From positions 310,001 to 374,000 of the forward strand of contig NZ_JABEDH010000002.1 of assembly GCF_029285175.1 (NCBI RefSeq): a stretch of 64,000 nt of DNA, read 5' to 3'. A program made the translations under genes and the position numbers. The notes beneath the pieces are model-generated. The model was not told the DNA's origin, ran no database searches, and saw nothing but the letters and a program-made list of their open reading frames with translations. Each line of letters starts with the position of its first letter. The first letter of the stretch is position 1. Below are positions 2,958 to 60,087 of this stretch, one piece after another. Source of the stretch: Sulfitobacter sp. M05. Lineage in GTDB: Bacteria > Pseudomonadota > Alphaproteobacteria > Rhodobacterales > Rhodobacteraceae.

Positions 2958-3211
2958 AACTCTGCCTGCCGGACTGCTCTTTTTTTGAAACCTTATCCCG
3001 CTTTGCCGGGAATGTTTAGCACTAGCGCCATCGAAACGATCAATATGACGACCATTTTTTGAGCAACTTTAATCGAACGACTAAATAATACGCAAATTTT
3101 CCGATCTTACCCCCTAAAATCCCACGGAAAACCTTCCTTCCTTCTCCAAAATGAAAGTTTCTGCAGTTGCACAATGCAGGACTACCCTGCCTATCGAAAG
3201 AGAGATCATCA

Positions 3212-3550
3212 GTGAAACTCATCATTGCAACAATCAAACCATTCAAGCTGGAGGAGGTGCGCGAGGCACTGACTGACGCGGGCGTACGCGGGCTGATGGT
3301 GACAGAAGTTAAGGGATTCGGCGCACAGTCCGGCCACACCGAAATTTACCGCGGCGCGGAATACGTCGTGAACTTTGTGCCCAAGGTCAAACTGGAACTG
3401 GTCGTCGCCGATGCCATCGCGGACCAGATCGTGGAGGTGATTTCAAGCACCGCACAGACCGGCAAAATCGGGGACGGCAAACTCTTTGTCATCGACGTGG
3501 AACAGGCAATGCGCGTGCGTACCGGTGAAACCGGCGACGACGCGCTTTAA
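3212..3550 (+). CDS. glnK: Nitrogen regulatory protein P-II (GlnK)
   Basis: 112-residue PII signal protein. I take the GTG at 3212 as the start, since it gives the canonical MKLIIATIKPFKLEEVREAL beginning and sits just after a purine-rich AAAGAGAG; a longer in-frame reading from 3167 adds residues not seen in the family. The T-loop includes Tyr51 (RGAEYVV), the uridylylation site of GlnB/GlnK proteins. PII senses 2-oxoglutarate, ATP/ADP and, by uridylylation, glutamine. Its position 21 bases before amtB makes GlnK, the gatekeeper of AmtB at the membrane, the best assignment over GlnB. Such operons are usually NtrC controlled, but I could not find a convincing sigma-54 site upstream. Confidence 0.93.
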   Translation: MKLIIATIKPFKLEEVREALTDAGVRGLMVTEVKGFGAQSGHTEIYRGAEYVVNFVPKVKLELVVADAIADQIVEVISSTAQTGKIGDGKLFVIDVEQAMRVRTGETGDDAL

Positions 3551-3571
3551 GCTCAAGAAGGATATTAAGAA

Positions 3572-4900
3572 ATGACATTGTCGAAAAAACTACTTCTCAC
3601 CGGGGCGGCAATCACCCTGCCGCAGATGGGCTTGGCACAAGACGCAGAGACCGCTGCGGTAACGGCAGAAATGGTCTGGATCATGAACACATTGCTGTTC
3701 TTGATCGGCGGCTTTCTGGTGTTCTTTATGGCCGCCGGCTTTTGCATGTTAGAAGGCGGATTGGTGCGTTCCAAAAACGTCACCATGCAAATGACCAAGA
3801 ACGTCGGCCTGTTTTCACTGGCAACCATCGCCTATTGGGCTTTTGGCTATAACCTGATGTACCCTTTGGGCACCTGGTCCATTGAAGGGGTGCTGTCGGG
3901 CGTGTTCGGCGTCGGCGTTCTGGAAGCGGTGGGCATTGATTTGGCCGGTGCGGACGATGGCGAATATGCCTCGACGGGATCCGACTTTTTCTTTCAGCTG
4001 ATGTTTTGTGCCGCCACTGCTTCGATCGTATCGGGTGCCTTGGCTGAACGGATCAAACTGTGGCCCTTCCTGATCTTCGTCGTGATCCTGACCGGCATCA
4101 TCTATCCTTTGCAGGCTTCGTGGAAATGGGGCGGCGGCTTTCTGGATGAAATGGGCTTCCTCGATTTTGCCGGCTCAACTGTTGTGCATTCCGTTGGCGG
4201 CTGGGCTGCCTTGGCAGGCGCGCTGATCCTTGGGCCACGTATCGGTAAATACAAAGACGGTCGCGTGAACCCGATGCCCGGCTCAAACCTTGCGCTGGCC
4301 ACCTTGGGTATGTTCATCCTGTGGCTTGGCTGGTTCGGCTTTAACGGTGGTTCGCAGTTGGCCATGGGGTCAGTCGGCGACATCGCTGACGTGTCGCGCA
4401 TCTTCGCCAATACCAATGCCGGCGCTGCCGGTGGTGCTTTTGTGGCGCTGGTTCTGACGCAGCTGCTTTACAAAAAGCCCGACCTTACGATGGTTCTGAA
4501 CGGTGCGCTGGCGGGCCTTGTGTCCATCACAGCCGAGCCATTGACACCAAGCCTTGGAATGGCGACGCTGATCGGTGGTATCGGCGGTGTGATCGTGGTC
4601 TTTACCGTGCCGTTCCTTGATAAGCTCAAGATCGACGATGTTGTCGGTGCGATCCCTGTGCATCTCTTTGGCGGCATCTGGGGCACAATTGCGGTGGTTC
4701 TGACCAACCCCGAGGCCTCGCTTGGCACACAGCTTTATTCGATCCTGATCGTTGGTGTCTTTGTCTTCGTGGCCTCTGGTGCCGTCTGGCTGGCCCTCAA
4801 GGCGGTCACGGGCATCAGGGTTAGCGAAGAGGCCGAAATCAACGGGTTGGATATGACTGAACTGGGCATGGAAGCCTATCCTGAGTTTTCCAAGAGCTGA
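3572..4900 (+). CDS. amtB: Ammonium transporter AmtB
   Basis: 442-residue Amt/MEP/Rh channel protein. A cleavable-looking N-terminal segment (1-22, ending GLAQ) is followed by about eleven membrane helices. The two pore histidines fall at about 206 (TVVHSVGGW) and 364 (PVHLFGGIWG), and the AGFCMLEGG segment near 50 is family-typical. It conducts ammonium across the inner membrane and is blocked by deuridylylated GlnK when nitrogen is plentiful, which matches its place directly downstream of glnK. A strong hairpin terminator follows the gene. Confidence 0.95.
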   Translation: MTLSKKLLLTGAAITLPQMGLAQDAETAAVTAEMVWIMNTLLFLIGGFLVFFMAAGFCMLEGGLVRSKNVTMQMTKNVGLFSLATIAYWAFGYNLMYPLGTWSIEGVLSGVFGVGVLEAVGIDLAGADDGEYASTGSDFFFQLMFCAATASIVSGALAERIKLWPFLIFVVILTGIIYPLQASWKWGGGFLDEMGFLDFAGSTVVHSVGGWAALAGALILGPRIGKYKDGRVNPMPGSNLALATLGMFILWLGWFGFNGGSQLAMGSVGDIADVSRIFANTNAGAAGGAFVALVLTQLLYKKPDLTMVLNGALAGLVSITAEPLTPSLGMATLIGGIGGVIVVFTVPFLDKLKIDDVVGAIPVHLFGGIWGTIAVVLTNPEASLGTQLYSILIVGVFVFVASGAVWLALKAVTGIRVSEEAEINGLDMTELGMEAYPEFSKS

Positions 4901-55039: not shown

Positions 55040-55116
55040 GGCCCCGTGGCTCAACTGGATAGAGCAGCCCCCTCCTAAGGGGCAGGTTGCAGGTTCGAAT
55101 CCTGCCGGGGTCACCA
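55040..55116 (+). tRNA. tRNA-Arg (anticodon CCT)
   Basis: 77 bases including the encoded CCA. Acceptor stem GGCCCCG/CGGGGTC, D stem GCTC/GAGC, anticodon stem GCCCC/GGGGC with loop CTCCTAA, T stem GCAGG/CCTGC with TTCGAAT. All stems fold, with one G-U in the acceptor. Reads AGG codons. Its 3' end doubles as the attachment site of the downstream island. Confidence 0.96.
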
Positions 55117-55119
55117 AAA
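55100..55119 (+). repeat. attL core (3' end of tRNA-Arg)
   Basis: TCCTGCCGGGGTCACCAAAA, including the last 17 bases of the tRNA. It matches 60068-60087 at 19 of 20 positions in the same orientation. Confidence 0.8.
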
Positions 55120-55271: not shown

Positions 55272-55523
55272 ATGAGCTGGCGGGTCGCCAACACATGTGC
55301 GGAACGGAAGTTCGGTAGCGCTACGCGCAAGCAGATCATTATGTTTCTGGCTGACAAGGCCAGCGACGACGGTTCAGGTATCTGGTGTTCAAAGGGCACG
55401 ATCCAGCGACACACCGAGCTTGGAGAGACCACCGTCAAGCGAACCGTGCGCGCGTTCCTGAAGGAAGGCATCCTGGTCGAGACCGGCGCACGGACCTGCA
55501 AGAACGGTTTCACTGTCGTTTAG
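55272..55523 (+). pseudogene. Truncated helix-turn-helix replication-type protein
   Basis: 83 codons with a good GGAGG before the ATG. MSWRVANTCAERKFGSATRKQIIMFLADKASDDGSGIWCSKGTIQRHTELGETTVKRTVRAFLKEG is the start of a family of HTH proteins found on alphaproteobacterial plasmids and prophages (quoted here by its key parts GSATRK, SKGTIQRHTELGETTVKRTV). Known relatives continue well past KNGFTV, where this one stops. It overlaps the opposing lipoprotein gene, so a junction near 55520 has removed the 3' part. Confidence 0.6.
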
Positions 55524-55769: not shown

Positions 55770-56077
55770 CAGTTTCCTTTCGATTTCGGGCCTTTGAGAA
55801 GGCGTTGCGCACCACGGCCAACTCCGGCCTTTGTCACACGTCCCACGGCGGCTGCTTGGTTCGTGACAACGCCGGCGGCTGCGACCGTGCCAACCACGTT
55901 GGATTCGAGATTCATCGTGTTCGCTCTTTCAGTCAGCATCCCTGCGCGCGACATGACATGATCTCCAAGCTCGGTGATCACGCTGGATGCCAGGATGACC
56001 AGATAGAGCGTCACCAGGACGTACATGCAGACCAAACCAACAAGAATGATCACAGTGAACCAGGACCCAGCGGTCAA
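55769..56077 (-). CDS. Single-pass membrane protein, probably 5'-truncated
   Basis: 102 residues from a TTG at 56075-56077 that directly follows an in-frame TAG. A strong membrane helix (about 8-33) leads into a Gly/Ala/Val-rich basic region. The weak start and the abutting ParB-like fragment on the other strand suggest the true 5' end was lost. No family recognised. Confidence 0.4.
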   Translation of the reverse strand: MTAGSWFTVIILVGLVCMYVLVTLYLVILASSVITELGDHVMSRAGMLTERANTMNLESNVVGTVAAAGVVTNQAAAVGRVTKAGVGRGAQRLLKGPKSKGN

Positions 56078-56116
56078 CTATCTTTGCGCATTCATGGACA
56101 GGACACCGGATACCCT

Positions 56117-56836
56117 TTGGCGACACTTCGTAAGGCATTGAGAAACAGCGGCTCACTTGATGCCATTCTTGTATGGCGCGAACAGGATGGCGAAGGGAAA
56201 GAAACAGGCCGCTTAGTGCTCCTTGATGGGCACTTTCGGGTGATCGCCTATCGGGCAGAGATTGCCGAAGGACATATTGAGGGGAAGGGCATCCCAACGC
56301 ATCTTGCGAAAGGTACACGTATCGAAGCAGAACTTGCTGCCTTGCGCGCCAATACCAAGGACGCGCTGCCGTTGACACCATTGGAACGGACGGATGCCGC
56401 ATGGGCCTTGGTGCGCAGATACAGAAACAAAATATCCAAGTCGCAACTAGCGAAGTCCTCTGGTGTATCAGAGCGTTCTATTGCGAACATGCGAAGTAAG
56501 CTCAAAGAGTTCGTTGAGGCGAAGGAGACACCCTCAGGCGACTGGTGGCAGGACCGCAAGTGGCCCGAAGAGAGCACCTTCACGCCCCCAGAAGATGCCG
56601 AAAGGGAGCGCCTGATTGCGACCCTCGCGAATTCGATCACGGAGGCGATCAGGGAAAACCGGATCCGTGATGTTGAGATCAAGGCGGAGGCCATCCAACG
56701 AGCACTGGGTCAGCGCGATATGGCAGACGTGGTGGAATACCTTGGGCTTAGCCTTGGAGAGTTCGATGAGTTCTCGGAGGATGTGTCAGATCAAGACCTG
56801 AACAACGACCTTGAGTATCGGCCAGAGGTTCACTGA
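56117..56836 (+). pseudogene. ParB-like DNA-binding protein, 5' end missing
   Basis: About 239 codons from a possible TTG at 56117; the open frame extends upstream, but only as the antisense of the membrane-protein gene. LVLLDGHFRVIAYRAEIAEG is the ParB/Srx-like nuclease fold motif, followed by LTPLERTDAAWALVRRY and a helix-turn-helix (ISKSQLAKSSGVSERSIANMRSKL). Relatives begin with about 50 more residues before LRKALRNSGSLDAILVW. Plasmid-type partition or regulatory protein; probably non-functional unless the TTG is used. Confidence 0.55.
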
Positions 56837-57070: not shown

Positions 57071-57631
57071 CTACTTCAGGCGGCTTAAAATCTCGTCTTC
57101 CAACTGTTTCCTTACCTTTGCACACAAGGTGCCAATGTGTTGAGCGGAAGTCTCGAGTGCCGCACACTTTACGTCGTCCCCCAAGTTCGGGTTGTAAGCC
57201 GCATTGAACTTGTCTGCCGCCACATCAAAATGGTGCGGGGTAATTGCCTCCCATTGCGTCCCGTTGGCAAACTGGCTGTCGCTCACCTTTCGAAGATTAA
57301 TCTGCAGCTTGAGATGTAGCTCACAAAATTCTCTGTTCAATCCGCCAATATCGGCATTTTCAGAAATTTGGCCTGCGGCAGATATACTGTTCAGCCGCTC
57401 TCCTATCATTTCCAATTCATCAAGAATCAAGTAGATAGGACGTTGGAAATTATCGCAGAATTGTTCCCGCATCAAGTTAGCTTCGCGTATCTCTTTGTCT
57501 CGACGCTCAGATTCAATTCTTACATTGCGCGTCAGCCATAGATTGAACAAGTTAAGCGCCAGCGAAAGCAACGCAATCACGGCCGTCAAAGTACGTGGGT
57601 CAAACGTGCTGGTGACATGTTCAGGCGGCAT
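57071..57631 (-). CDS. Single-pass membrane protein of the island operon (candidate effector)
   Basis: 186 residues. One membrane helix at about 14-34 (LTAVIALLSLALNLFNLWLT), then a charged helix (RIESERRDKEIREANLMREQ) and a helical cytoplasmic domain to the end. No enzymatic motif. It starts 4 bases after the STAS-like stop with TAGGTG as ribosome site, so it is translated with the two upstream genes. Its simple TM-plus-helical design resembles membrane effectors in defence operons, but that is analogy only. Confidence 0.7.
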   Translation of the reverse strand: MPPEHVTSTFDPRTLTAVIALLSLALNLFNLWLTRNVRIESERRDKEIREANLMREQFCDNFQRPIYLILDELEMIGERLNSISAAGQISENADIGGLNREFCELHLKLQINLRKVSDSQFANGTQWEAITPHHFDVAADKFNAAYNPNLGDDVKCAALETSAQHIGTLCAKVRKQLEDEILSRLK

Positions 57632-57635
57632 ACAC

Positions 57636-57956
57636 CTAGCCTAACGCGCTGCGCTTCATAAGAGAGTCCCTGATGCCCTCCGCGACCTGCTGCATAACGA
57701 TAGAGGACGCCTGAAAGCGATAGTGGGCCAAAAAGCCTTCCTTACCCAACTTTTTGACGGATTGGGCGAACATTCCTTGAAAGAAGGAACTCGACAATGT
57801 CAGTAGCTCGCCCGGAATGACCACATCGACAGTTTCATCATCACCATCCAAATGGTCAAGCATCCACTTTTCGCGCGCATCCTCGCCACGCTCATGGCCC
57901 ACAAGGTTGCGGACCTTGCCATCATTAGTCAGTTCAGAAAACAGTATTTCAGTCAT
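57636..57956 (-). CDS. STAS-like (DUF4325-type) protein
   Basis: 106 residues from the ATG at 57954-57956, 5 bases after GGAGG; an ATG one codon earlier is possible. The pattern DVVIPGELLTLSSSFFQGMFAQ followed by HYRFQASSIVMQQVAEGIRDSL fits the STAS-like DUF4325 fold, including the serine-rich loop (SSS at about 59-61) where anti-anti-sigma factors are phosphorylated. Such proteins usually sit beside GHKL ATPases, as here. The start overlaps the ATPase gene's end by 8 bases. Confidence 0.7.
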   Translation of the reverse strand: MTEILFSELTNDGKVRNLVGHERGEDAREKWMLDHLDGDDETVDVVIPGELLTLSSSFFQGMFAQSVKKLGKEGFLAHYRFQASSIVMQQVAEGIRDSLMKRSALG

Positions 57957-59430
57957 CATCGCCTCCATCATGAACACTTCCGTAGTTGAGTGGGTCTAGA
58001 ACAAAACCCATGCTTATAATTGTACCGGGGAACCCTACAGGGACATCATAAACGAAATCGGTGTCCGGCGGGTGTCCTCTATCGTTGTTAGGGTTGAACC
58101 ACAAGGTCCTCGGCGCTTCAGGGCTATCCCTCAGACCTTTAACATAGGGTGTACGTAGGGAAATACAGGACCGACCTGATAGAATTGTTATCTTCGGCGC
58201 ATGACCTTGGGAGAGCGTCGTACCCAAACCACTCACCACATCTAGCATTGAAGGTAGGCCAACACCACCTTGTTCTTTCTCCCATTTTTCTGGGTCACAC
58301 GTTATGCCGTCCTGCAGTGCTGCTAGAGTTAAAAGTGTCTCTCGTGATTGTTTAGCCCCCGCCGAGATGGCGTTTTTAACATAGTTGTCTAGTTTTTCTG
58401 CAAGGTCAGGTGAGGCTCGTCCGAGACTTTCGGCGAACGTATCACCAAGATTTACGATTCCAAGATACGCATGAAGCCGCGTCTCTCCCGAATCGTCATC
58501 CGTTCGACGCGCCAAAAAACCACTGACATTCCACCGTCCATCCCCTCGTTCCCCGTCGCTGTGTCGTTCGGCATTATTTAGCATTTCTGCAAGGATACTC
58601 TGTATCCCAACCCAACCAGTATCAGTGAGTTCCTCAGGCGGGTCTAATTTGCCAAGCCAACTATCAATTGCATCGCACAACCGGTCTGCGACTTTCTCCG
58701 CCTTCTGTAATTGCGCAAACCGGCGTTCACTTTGCGAAGACCCTGCATCTCGGCGACGCTCTAGCGGAAATGCCCAAACATCGCTTAGGTCGCGAAGGCC
58801 AACCAAATCAATGTCCATACCGTCTGTTATTCCAACGGCATGAAGTACCTTCTGCATTGGCAAATCCATGAACCCACCGTCAAAAACGCGCAGCATATCG
58901 TCCCACATAAGACGTAATATCATGAACGGCGTAATATCTTGGCAGAACTTGTCCCGAAAATTGAGCGTTACTGCTGCAGCGCTTGCTTCCGCTTTGGAGA
59001 TTTTCTGAAGACCCTGCATTGTCGCAATCGGGTCGGCTAAGAAGGAAAAGTTCTCAAGGTCAATGGTTTCTGAGCTGTCTTGGTCACGTTTTGGCAAGTC
59101 CAACCACCCGTTTTCCGTTTGGCGGCGTGGGAAAAGATTATCGAGAACAACTGAGTCCCGCCTCTTCCTTAGCAAGAGAAGCTGCAGTTCTTTGGGGATT
59201 TCAAGGCCGCGTGTCTCTGACGGAAACTTCGCTCGCACCCGCTCATCAATTGCACGGCGCAGTGAAGCACGTCGTTCAGAATCCTGCCCTGAAAGGTTCC
59301 AGTTCTTTTGAAGTTGTGCGCGATATTCTCGGCGGCTCTCTTCCAAGTACTCATCGTGATCAACGCCGCGTGCCTGAGCACTTCGAGCTTGAAATGCACC
59401 AAGGAACCTTCTGAGAGGGGTGTCATCCAT
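57949..59430 (-). CDS. GHKL ATPase with STAS-like N-terminal region
   Basis: 493 residues, no signal or membrane helix. An Arg-rich N-terminus (1-100) is followed by a region that looks STAS-like (AAAVTLNFRDKFCQDITPFM, about 151-170). The GHKL ATPase part has the N box AEMLNNAERHS at about 281-291, a G1-like GIVNLGDTFAES at about 324-335 and the G2 box QGGVGLPSMLDVV at about 387-399. The C-terminal strand FPGTIISMGFVL is also seen in ATPases paired with DUF4325 proteins. There is no histidine-kinase dimerisation motif, so a serine-kinase-like anti-factor is more likely. First gene of the three-gene operon; A+T-rich relative to the flanks. Confidence 0.72.
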   Translation of the reverse strand: MDDTPLRRFLGAFQARSAQARGVDHDEYLEESRREYRAQLQKNWNLSGQDSERRASLRRAIDERVRAKFPSETRGLEIPKELQLLLLRKRRDSVVLDNLFPRRQTENGWLDLPKRDQDSSETIDLENFSFLADPIATMQGLQKISKAEASAAAVTLNFRDKFCQDITPFMILRLMWDDMLRVFDGGFMDLPMQKVLHAVGITDGMDIDLVGLRDLSDVWAFPLERRRDAGSSQSERRFAQLQKAEKVADRLCDAIDSWLGKLDPPEELTDTGWVGIQSILAEMLNNAERHSDGERGDGRWNVSGFLARRTDDDSGETRLHAYLGIVNLGDTFAESLGRASPDLAEKLDNYVKNAISAGAKQSRETLLTLAALQDGITCDPEKWEKEQGGVGLPSMLDVVSGLGTTLSQGHAPKITILSGRSCISLRTPYVKGLRDSPEAPRTLWFNPNNDRGHPPDTDFVYDVPVGFPGTIISMGFVLDPLNYGSVHDGGDDD

Positions 59431-60067: not shown

Positions 60068-60087
60068 TCCTGCCGGGGTCGCCAAAA
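60068..60087 (+). repeat. attR core
   Basis: TCCTGCCGGGGTCGCCAAAA, a direct repeat of 55100-55119 with one change (A to G in the CCA region). No tRNA lies upstream of it, so it is a displaced tRNA 3' end rather than a second gene. The 210 bases between it and the thi operon hold no evident gene. Confidence 0.75.

Follow-up and report, generated by a model that had tools for sequence, protein, structure and literature searches.

A mobile three-gene operon from Sulfitobacter, predicted to encode GHKL, STAS-like and membrane proteins, as a candidate phospho-switch resembling VapKSC

GHKL kinases acting on a serine of a STAS protein are known from the SpoIIAB/SpoIIAA and RsbW/RsbV pairs, and two further arrangements, CapK/CapS and VapKSC, are described by Chambers et al., EMBO J 2026 (PMC13373217). 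In CapKS, the kinase carries a helix-turn-helix (HTH) and the STAS protein a winged HTH, the phosphorylated serine of CapS lies at a helix start, and the pair regulates the transcription of an immune operon that lies downstream. In VapKSC, the gene following the kinase and the STAS protein encodes the toxin, a VapC-like PIN nuclease; single-stranded DNA activates the kinase, the toxin is set free once the STAS protein is phosphorylated, the S48E variant of VapS no longer binds the toxin, and vapKSC confers protection against phage Bas42. Here we describe an operon within a 64,000-nucleotide stretch of Sulfitobacter sp. M05 DNA (the window), comprising genes for a predicted STAS-like and GHKL protein (P1), a DUF4325-type STAS-like protein (P2) and a single-pass membrane protein (P3). 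By analogy, this operon would most likely be a switch under phosphorylation control that acts through a membrane protein in phage defence, representing a variant of the kinase-STAS module. The exact gene set seems undescribed: in the open literature, with few subscription papers or preprints included and with supplementary lists, among them one of 169 phage P2-hotspot systems, outside the scope, we found no description of a GHKL-STAS-membrane-protein operon, and the word "transmembrane" does not occur in the text of Chambers et al. (PMC13373217); two papers contain the term DUF4325. A GHKL match in PMC12137116 belongs to a Shedu protein, and the DefensePredictor paper mentions HATPase in a figure legend (PMC13092281).

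The three genes form a real, conserved and mobile cassette. The original prediction had described three minus-strand genes with an 8-base overlap and a 4-base gap, and the coordinates of the open reading frames (ORFs) bear this out. P2 and P3 are 4 bases apart. The overlap between P1 and P2 measures 8 bases when the ATG at 57956 is taken as the P2 start (106 aa) and 11 bases when the ATG at 57959 is taken (107 aa, the version followed by our P2 residue numbers). That the operon is more than a chance arrangement follows from the exact co-occurrence of P1 and P2 homologues, which share one and the same set of 5 among 295 family genomes (one of them the genome of the window), and from the recurrence of the gene order in 39 non-redundant loci, obtained by clustering all loci with a P2 match at 90% P2 identity. 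The genus-mate G055 has no P1 homologue. P1 is full length in 37 of the 39 loci, and a gene 90 or more codons long lies closely 3' of P2 in 37 as well; because loci were detected via P1 or P2, a P3 lacking both would be missed. Whether homologues keep a membrane-protein neighbour had been set beforehand as a test of the operon, and the two loci outside this count are one whose P3 region is cut by the contig end and is not assessable (L016) and one in which the frame is open and encodes a hydrophobic segment, with no usual start (L004). In the latter, the frame at 3123-3641 encodes a transmembrane-like segment and has no ATG, GTG or TTG near P2; its P3 may start at a rare codon, be frameshifted or be decaying. 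As to the earlier interpretation, its logic of an ATPase acting on a STAS-like protein to release a membrane protein would match that reported for VapKSC (PMC13373217), and its view of the membrane protein as an unusual addition was not supported: such a protein is what this family normally encodes, and a hydrophobic third protein likewise occurs in 5 of 19 DUF4325 loci.

Cassette carriers comprise islands, prophages and plasmids across Alphaproteobacteria, Gammaproteobacteria and Bacteroidota. With the P1 profile, 7 of 385 class genomes matched, of which four were convincing and three, at E ~6e-4, were dropped; 5 of 398 phylum genomes matched, the convincing ones being the window's own genome and G855, with a P1 fragment in G777 and two matches dropped. 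P1 matches at E ~6e-4 in L010, L011, L012 and L015 were judged to be chance. A scan of viral contigs gave 21 loci, and 10 loci were confirmed out of 131 pattern matches in genome contigs, their record titles naming Rhodobacteraceae, Leisingera, Ensifer, Ciceribacter, Roseibium, Hyphomicrobiales, Enterobacter, Yersinia, Proteus and a Bacteroidetes metagenome-assembled genome. Plasmid searches returned one record with the window P1 and seven with an E. coli-like P1 (three from Pantoea, and one each from Providencia, Vibrio, Salinivibrio and Spirosoma), and both queries found no match in the phage collection. On the Pantoea plasmid pAR8b_C (L040, 5222-10753), a tyrosine recombinase gene lies on either side of the cassette, which thereby resembles a small mobile unit.

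Family databases say little about these proteins. P1 and P3 of the window have no Pfam match, P2 has a sub-cut-off FBA match alone (E 0.042), and NCBIfam and PADLOC scans returned nothing for any of the three. In PHROGs, P2 matches phrog_37359, of unknown function, at E 3e-8, and P1 gives weaker matches, for example to phrog_3364 at E 0.0067. Among relatives, Pfam searches with nine proteins gave sub-cut-off matches only, and PADLOC searches with seven gave one weak match, of the P3 of L024 to CARF3--CARF_TM (E 0.0084).

For P2, the AlphaFold2 model reached a predicted local distance difference test score (pLDDT) of 94.2 and a predicted template-modelling score (pTM) of 0.86 and contains no further domain. 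Its closest predicted viral structures, in BFVD, are DUF4325 proteins, with E 3.3e-7 (TM-score 0.82/0.83) and 9.8e-6; together, model and matches support the STAS-like fold that the original prediction had proposed. In hhalign, P2 aligned with nine DUF4325 sequences at E 2.6e-5 (probability 74.7, score 34.7), compared to scores of 11.1 and 12.9 for reversed controls and of at most 18.3 in 100 column shuffles; against the five sequences from DUF4325 loci with a transmembrane third protein alone, the score was 25.3. The DUF4325 profile itself, PF14213, gave no match to the window P2 up to E 5, placing P2 below the Pfam cut-off. P2 is accordingly predicted to be a divergent relative with a DUF4325 STAS-like fold. 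DUF4325 and the solved VapS belong to one family (9z7o VapS, E 7.6e-11; L062, E 7.4e-14). Five P2 residues, G21, G25, A28, Ser58 and G62, are invariant in all 25 aligned sequences, and Ser58 comes second in the modelled helix 57-79. On the basis of motif and helix position, we propose that Ser58 corresponds to the phosphorylated serine of VapS and CapS.

The P1 model, built from a 25-sequence alignment (mean pLDDT 83.2, pTM 0.78), shows a helical N-terminal region, a beta-alpha alternation over residues 118-225, which we read as a predicted STAS-like domain, and a GHKL domain over residues 237-478. In Foldseek searches of the PDB, SpoIIAB chains took ranks 1-5 and 7 (E 0.0097-0.39, probability 0.69-0.99). 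Along with these nearest solved folds and the model, the N-box supports the GHKL fold that had been suggested for the ATPase: E282, L284 and N286-H290, plus G329, G389 and G391, do not vary across the 25 sequences. PDB sequence searches with profiles of P1 and P2 were uninformative. When aligned with six GHKL neighbours of DUF4325 genes, P1 reached a profile probability of 94.4 (E 8.4e-8), with both domains covered. The region before residue 118 carries a net charge of +4 to +27 in all 25 sequences (+5 in the window), and the first 45 residues of the DUF4325-linked GHKL proteins carry +10 to +16 in five of the six. To judge from this charge pattern, nucleic-acid sensing by the basic N-terminal region of P1 is conceivable.

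P3 of the window has one hydrophobic segment, residues 15-33, which is preceded by ~14 residues and followed by basic ones, and the alphaproteobacterial P3s generally have one N-terminal transmembrane segment with basic residues after it. E. coli-like P3s have a signal-like segment and ~90 residues ahead of the transmembrane segment. A hydrophobic segment was present at hydropathy 1.4 in 21 of 24 P3s, and the best 19-residue hydropathy window was at least 1.36 in 34 of the 37 loci with a third gene. Across the family, P3 evolves fast and is mostly single-pass; a proline past the transmembrane segment, P65, is nearly invariant. Profiles of the two groups aligned over 142 columns with a score of 29.4, compared to at most 14.6 in 40 shuffles and 21.6 for the reversed control; judged by these profiles, alphaproteobacterial and E. 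coli-like P3s are related. The P3 profile also gave 34 weak matches to helical proteins in the PDB (best E 0.005), including MakA and another alpha-helical pore-forming protein, which we set aside and did not use because P3 is coiled-coil-like.

With VapKSC, the operon shares the order of a STAS-GHKL kinase gene, a gene for a STAS-like protein with a conserved Ser/Thr and a third gene, as well as mobile or defence contexts. P1 would likewise combine STAS and GHKL domains without an HTH (according to model, fold search and profile, and to Pfam for the HTH), and P2 would have a STAS-like fold bearing the invariant Ser58. In contrast to VapKSC, the third gene encodes a membrane protein with no Pfam match and one transmembrane segment in place of a PIN nuclease, P1 has a long, mostly strongly basic N-terminal region and no G1-box aspartate, and P2 is the divergent DUF4325 relative described above. 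Because P3 has no PIN domain and one transmembrane segment, we do not class the operon as a VapKSC member; the logic still fits. CapK/CapS has the same pairing of a STAS-GHKL kinase with a STAS protein containing a conserved serine, and differs by its HTH domains, to which neither the P1 nor the P2 of the window gave a match, and by its control of an immune operon's transcription. As for the SpoIIAB/SpoIIAA and RsbW/RsbV pairs, they share with the operon the action that we propose for P1, and SpoIIAB is the nearest solved P1 fold; unlike the settings of these pairs, the operon contains no sigma factor, the search having covered the operon and its neighbours.

To place the cassette among its relatives, we compared it with 19 fetched DUF4325 loci. 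In two, the third gene encodes a PIN protein: PIN at E 7.1e-9 in L062 and PIN_12 at E 5.7e-6, below the Pfam cut-off, in L063, whose GHKL protein in addition matches STAS_2 weakly (E 0.0046). With their GHKL, DUF4325 and PIN genes, these two represent VapKSC-like loci in the same phylum. A hydrophobic third protein is encoded in five (L055, L056, L061, L067 and L070), the DUF4325 match lies inside a longer ORF in six (L057, L064, L065, L068, L069 and L073), and L060, L066, L071 and L072 have no such third gene; the automated count left L058, with a possible transmembrane gene, and L059 unassigned. The loci with a hydrophobic third protein (L055, L056, L061 and L070, plus L067, where the upstream ORF is short) have the same gene order as the cassette and a small third protein with one hydrophobic N-terminal segment. 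They nevertheless belong to another sequence subfamily, and their third proteins aligned with P3 over only 17 columns, which we did not accept as homology; they are apparently a second undescribed set with the same layout.

A link to phage defence comes from copies in E. coli. Used as query, the L024 version matched 32 of 5,426 complete E. coli genomes, all matches being chromosomal, with 60-80% identity, a count that may miss more distant versions; all 32 have three hypothetical proteins annotated under the match. The L038 version was found in 22 of the 5,426. Accessions of the E. coli proteins are WP_000723541.1, WP_000763711.1 and WP_000484450.1, and SE11 is one strain with the version at the phage P2 locus. 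In the four E. coli regions that we read, the cassette sits between the portal gene and the replication endonuclease gene of a phage P2-like prophage. We then searched L016-L054 by tblastn with the portal and replication proteins: among the 20 E. coli-like loci in prophages or chromosomes (L024-L039, L044 and L052-L054), 17 have the cassette between the two, in 10 distinct versions. Of the exceptions, L031 is cut by the contig end, and L032 and L054, from Proteus, have neither flank. This position is the gpA-gpQ hotspot, the site of old and tin in phage P2. According to two studies, eight further systems were cloned from it, three being protective (PMC9122126), and 4 of 21 systems in a functional screen lay at the same hotspot (PMC9519451). 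To judge from genomic position, the phage P2-prophage locus points to phage defence. One system from this hotspot deserves closer comparison: 3HP, composed of three genes without clear domain, is reported to protect against phage P1 (Rousset et al. 2022, PMC9122126) and to occur mostly on prophages in Salmonella (PMC11305592). The cassette resembles 3HP in its phage P2 locus in E. coli and in its three genes without clear domain, and differs in that the 3HP models of PADLOC-DB 2.0.0 gave no match, in a search run with no positive control, to ten cassette-family proteins (three from the window and seven from relatives). An identity with 3HP is possible and disfavoured by the searches, given this missing match and a study using the PADLOC server and citing PADLOC-DB v2.0.0 that does report 3HP (PMC10855318).

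Taken together, we give somewhat better than even chances to the reading of the cassette as a mobile three-gene phospho-switch resembling VapKSC, with the membrane protein as its output. This reading draws on the STAS-like and GHKL model of P1, its proximity to SpoIIAB and its kinship to DUF4325-linked GHKL proteins, including those of L062 and L063; on the DUF4325 fold of P2, the unity of DUF4325 and VapS and the invariant serine at the helix start; and on the constant third gene, the defence locus in phage P2-type prophages and two loci, L005 and L014, that retain P2 and P3 with P1 reduced to a fragment, a pattern expected if P2 alone suffices to silence P3. In L005, the P1 fragment ends near a tRNA-like sequence. 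In the mechanism that we propose, P2 would bind the cytosolic part of P3 at rest and keep it inactive. A signal from infection or DNA damage, perhaps nucleic acid on the basic N-terminal region, would activate P1, whose GHKL domain would phosphorylate P2 at Ser58; phosphorylated P2 would then release P3, which would act at the inner membrane and stop growth or infection. Several findings weigh against such a mechanism. In fold comparisons with the PDB, no STAS protein was among the best 50 rows for P2 and none reached E 0.001, P1 likewise had no match at E 0.001, and the alignment of P2 with three VapS-like sequences alone scored 15.4, which is not significant. The GHKL protein of the VapKSC-like locus L062 has no basic N-terminus (-6 in its first 45 residues, the exception among the six). 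P3 is poorly conserved, other copies being 8-19% identical to that of the window, and L046, L048 and L049 have only a weak hydrophobic segment (hydropathy 1.03-1.19); the toxicity of P3 is an assumption of the model. Beside the window copy, no defence gene was seen, the flanks having had no systematic defence-gene scan.

A further difficulty lies in the nucleotide-binding site of P1. The G1-box aspartate is a GHKL hallmark; it is replaced by Asn327 in the window and by one of Asn and Ser in each of the remaining 24 sequences, which makes a simple kinase activity of P1 less likely, whereas the six aligned DUF4325-linked GHKL proteins keep it. P1 could instead be a nucleotide-gated binder that alters its hold on P2 upon ATP binding, without phosphorylation. 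We regard this as quite unlikely: the Glu and Asn of the N-box and the G2-type Gly-x-Gly are invariant in all 25 P1 sequences, as is Ser58 in P2. Another view concerns P3, which might be a membrane sensor or anchor that responds to envelope stress or the entry of a phage by signalling to P2 and P1, or might block entry directly in the manner of superinfection exclusion under P1/P2 control. This has an appreciable, though minor, chance of being right. P3 is membrane-anchored, the ~90 residues ahead of the transmembrane segment in E. coli-like versions could face the periplasm, and many cassettes reside in prophages; on the other hand, the window P3 has only ~14 residues at this place, and the corresponding gene of VapKSC encodes the toxin. 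It is very improbable that a sigma factor or promoter is what P1 and P2 regulate, in the style of SpoIIAB/SpoIIAA or CapK/CapS, leaving P3 as bystander or target. The rank of SpoIIAB among the solved folds would suit this classical partner switch, but P3 is a constant partner and no HTH family was among the Pfam matches of P1 or P2 of the window.

A bolder formulation of the phospho-switch, to which we assign a little less than an even chance, is that the cassette defines a widespread, undescribed family of toxin-antitoxin-like phage-defence systems, in which a serine kinase from the same operon releases a STAS-like antitoxin, with the membrane protein as the toxin. If true, GHKL-STAS pairs would be a general switch with swappable outputs, namely transcription in CapS, RNA cleavage in VapC and membrane attack in the cassette, extending kinase-STAS control from VapC to membrane effectors. 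It would also offer a likely mechanism for three hypothetical genes that recur at a validated E. coli prophage defence locus, on plasmids and in islands, and the E. coli copies make the cassette directly testable in strains used in the laboratory.

Table 1. Positions of the operon, its predicted parts and the island boundaries within the window
Feature	Position	Strand	Basis	Proposed role or remark
P1, predicted STAS-like + GHKL protein	57949-59430	minus	ORF, ATG, 493 aa	proposed P2 kinase
P2, DUF4325-type STAS-like protein	57636-57959	minus	ORF	proposed phospho-regulated P3 inhibitor
P3, single-pass membrane protein	57071-57631	minus	ORF, ATG, 186 aa	proposed effector
P1 STAS-like domain, residues 118-225	58756-59079	minus	strand/helix alternation in model; within profile alignment to GHKL neighbours of DUF4325	
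P1 GHKL domain, residues 237-478	57997-58722	minus	AlphaFold2 model, Foldseek	
P1 N-box, residues 282-290	58561-58587	minus	E282, L284, N286-H290 invariant in 25/25 sequences	
P2 Ser58 codon	57786-57788	minus	invariant in 25/25; second residue of helix 57-79 in model	proposed phosphorylation site
P3 transmembrane segment, residues 15-33	57533-57589	minus	mean Kyte-Doolittle hydropathy 1.99	
tRNA-Arg(CCT)	55040-55116	plus	ARAGORN; sole tRNA found in window	left island end
Boundary repeat, tRNA-side copy	55100-55119	plus	sequence comparison	tRNA 3' end
Boundary repeat, far copy	60068-60087	plus	19/20 bases identical	right island end

The operon of the window lies in an island of ~5 kb, bounded by the 3' end of the tRNA-Arg(CCT) gene, with the repeat TCCTGCCGGGGTCACCAAAA at 55100-55119, and by the copy of this repeat with 19 of 20 bases at 60068-60087. 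G+C content is ~0.50 in 2-kb windows over 57-60 kb, as compared to 0.52-0.62 away from the island, which, along with the tRNA at the left end, agrees with the A+T-rich tRNA island noted at the outset. We noticed no integrase in the island, in an inspection that included no search aimed at integrases. Relatives hold different DNA at the same tRNA, which seems to be an insertion hotspot. In G076 (L086, 1137-8767), the 12-base repeat core recurs ~7.6 kb off, and a relaxase-like gene (E 7.1e-5, just below the Pfam cut-off) and a C5 DNA methylase gene (E 1.4e-85) lie between the cores. In G075 (L084), this tRNA adjoins a 284-aa ORF, of which the 83-aa ORF directly past the tRNA of the window (55272-55523) is a shortened copy. 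Given the content of these relatives, the window island looks like a shortened or worn mobile element with the cassette as cargo. Adjoining the operon, a plus-strand ORF of 343 aa (55805-56836), whose true start probably lies further in, has a weak SoFic match (E 6e-4) and matches the ParB-like partition-protein family phrog_1033 at E 1.1e-7.

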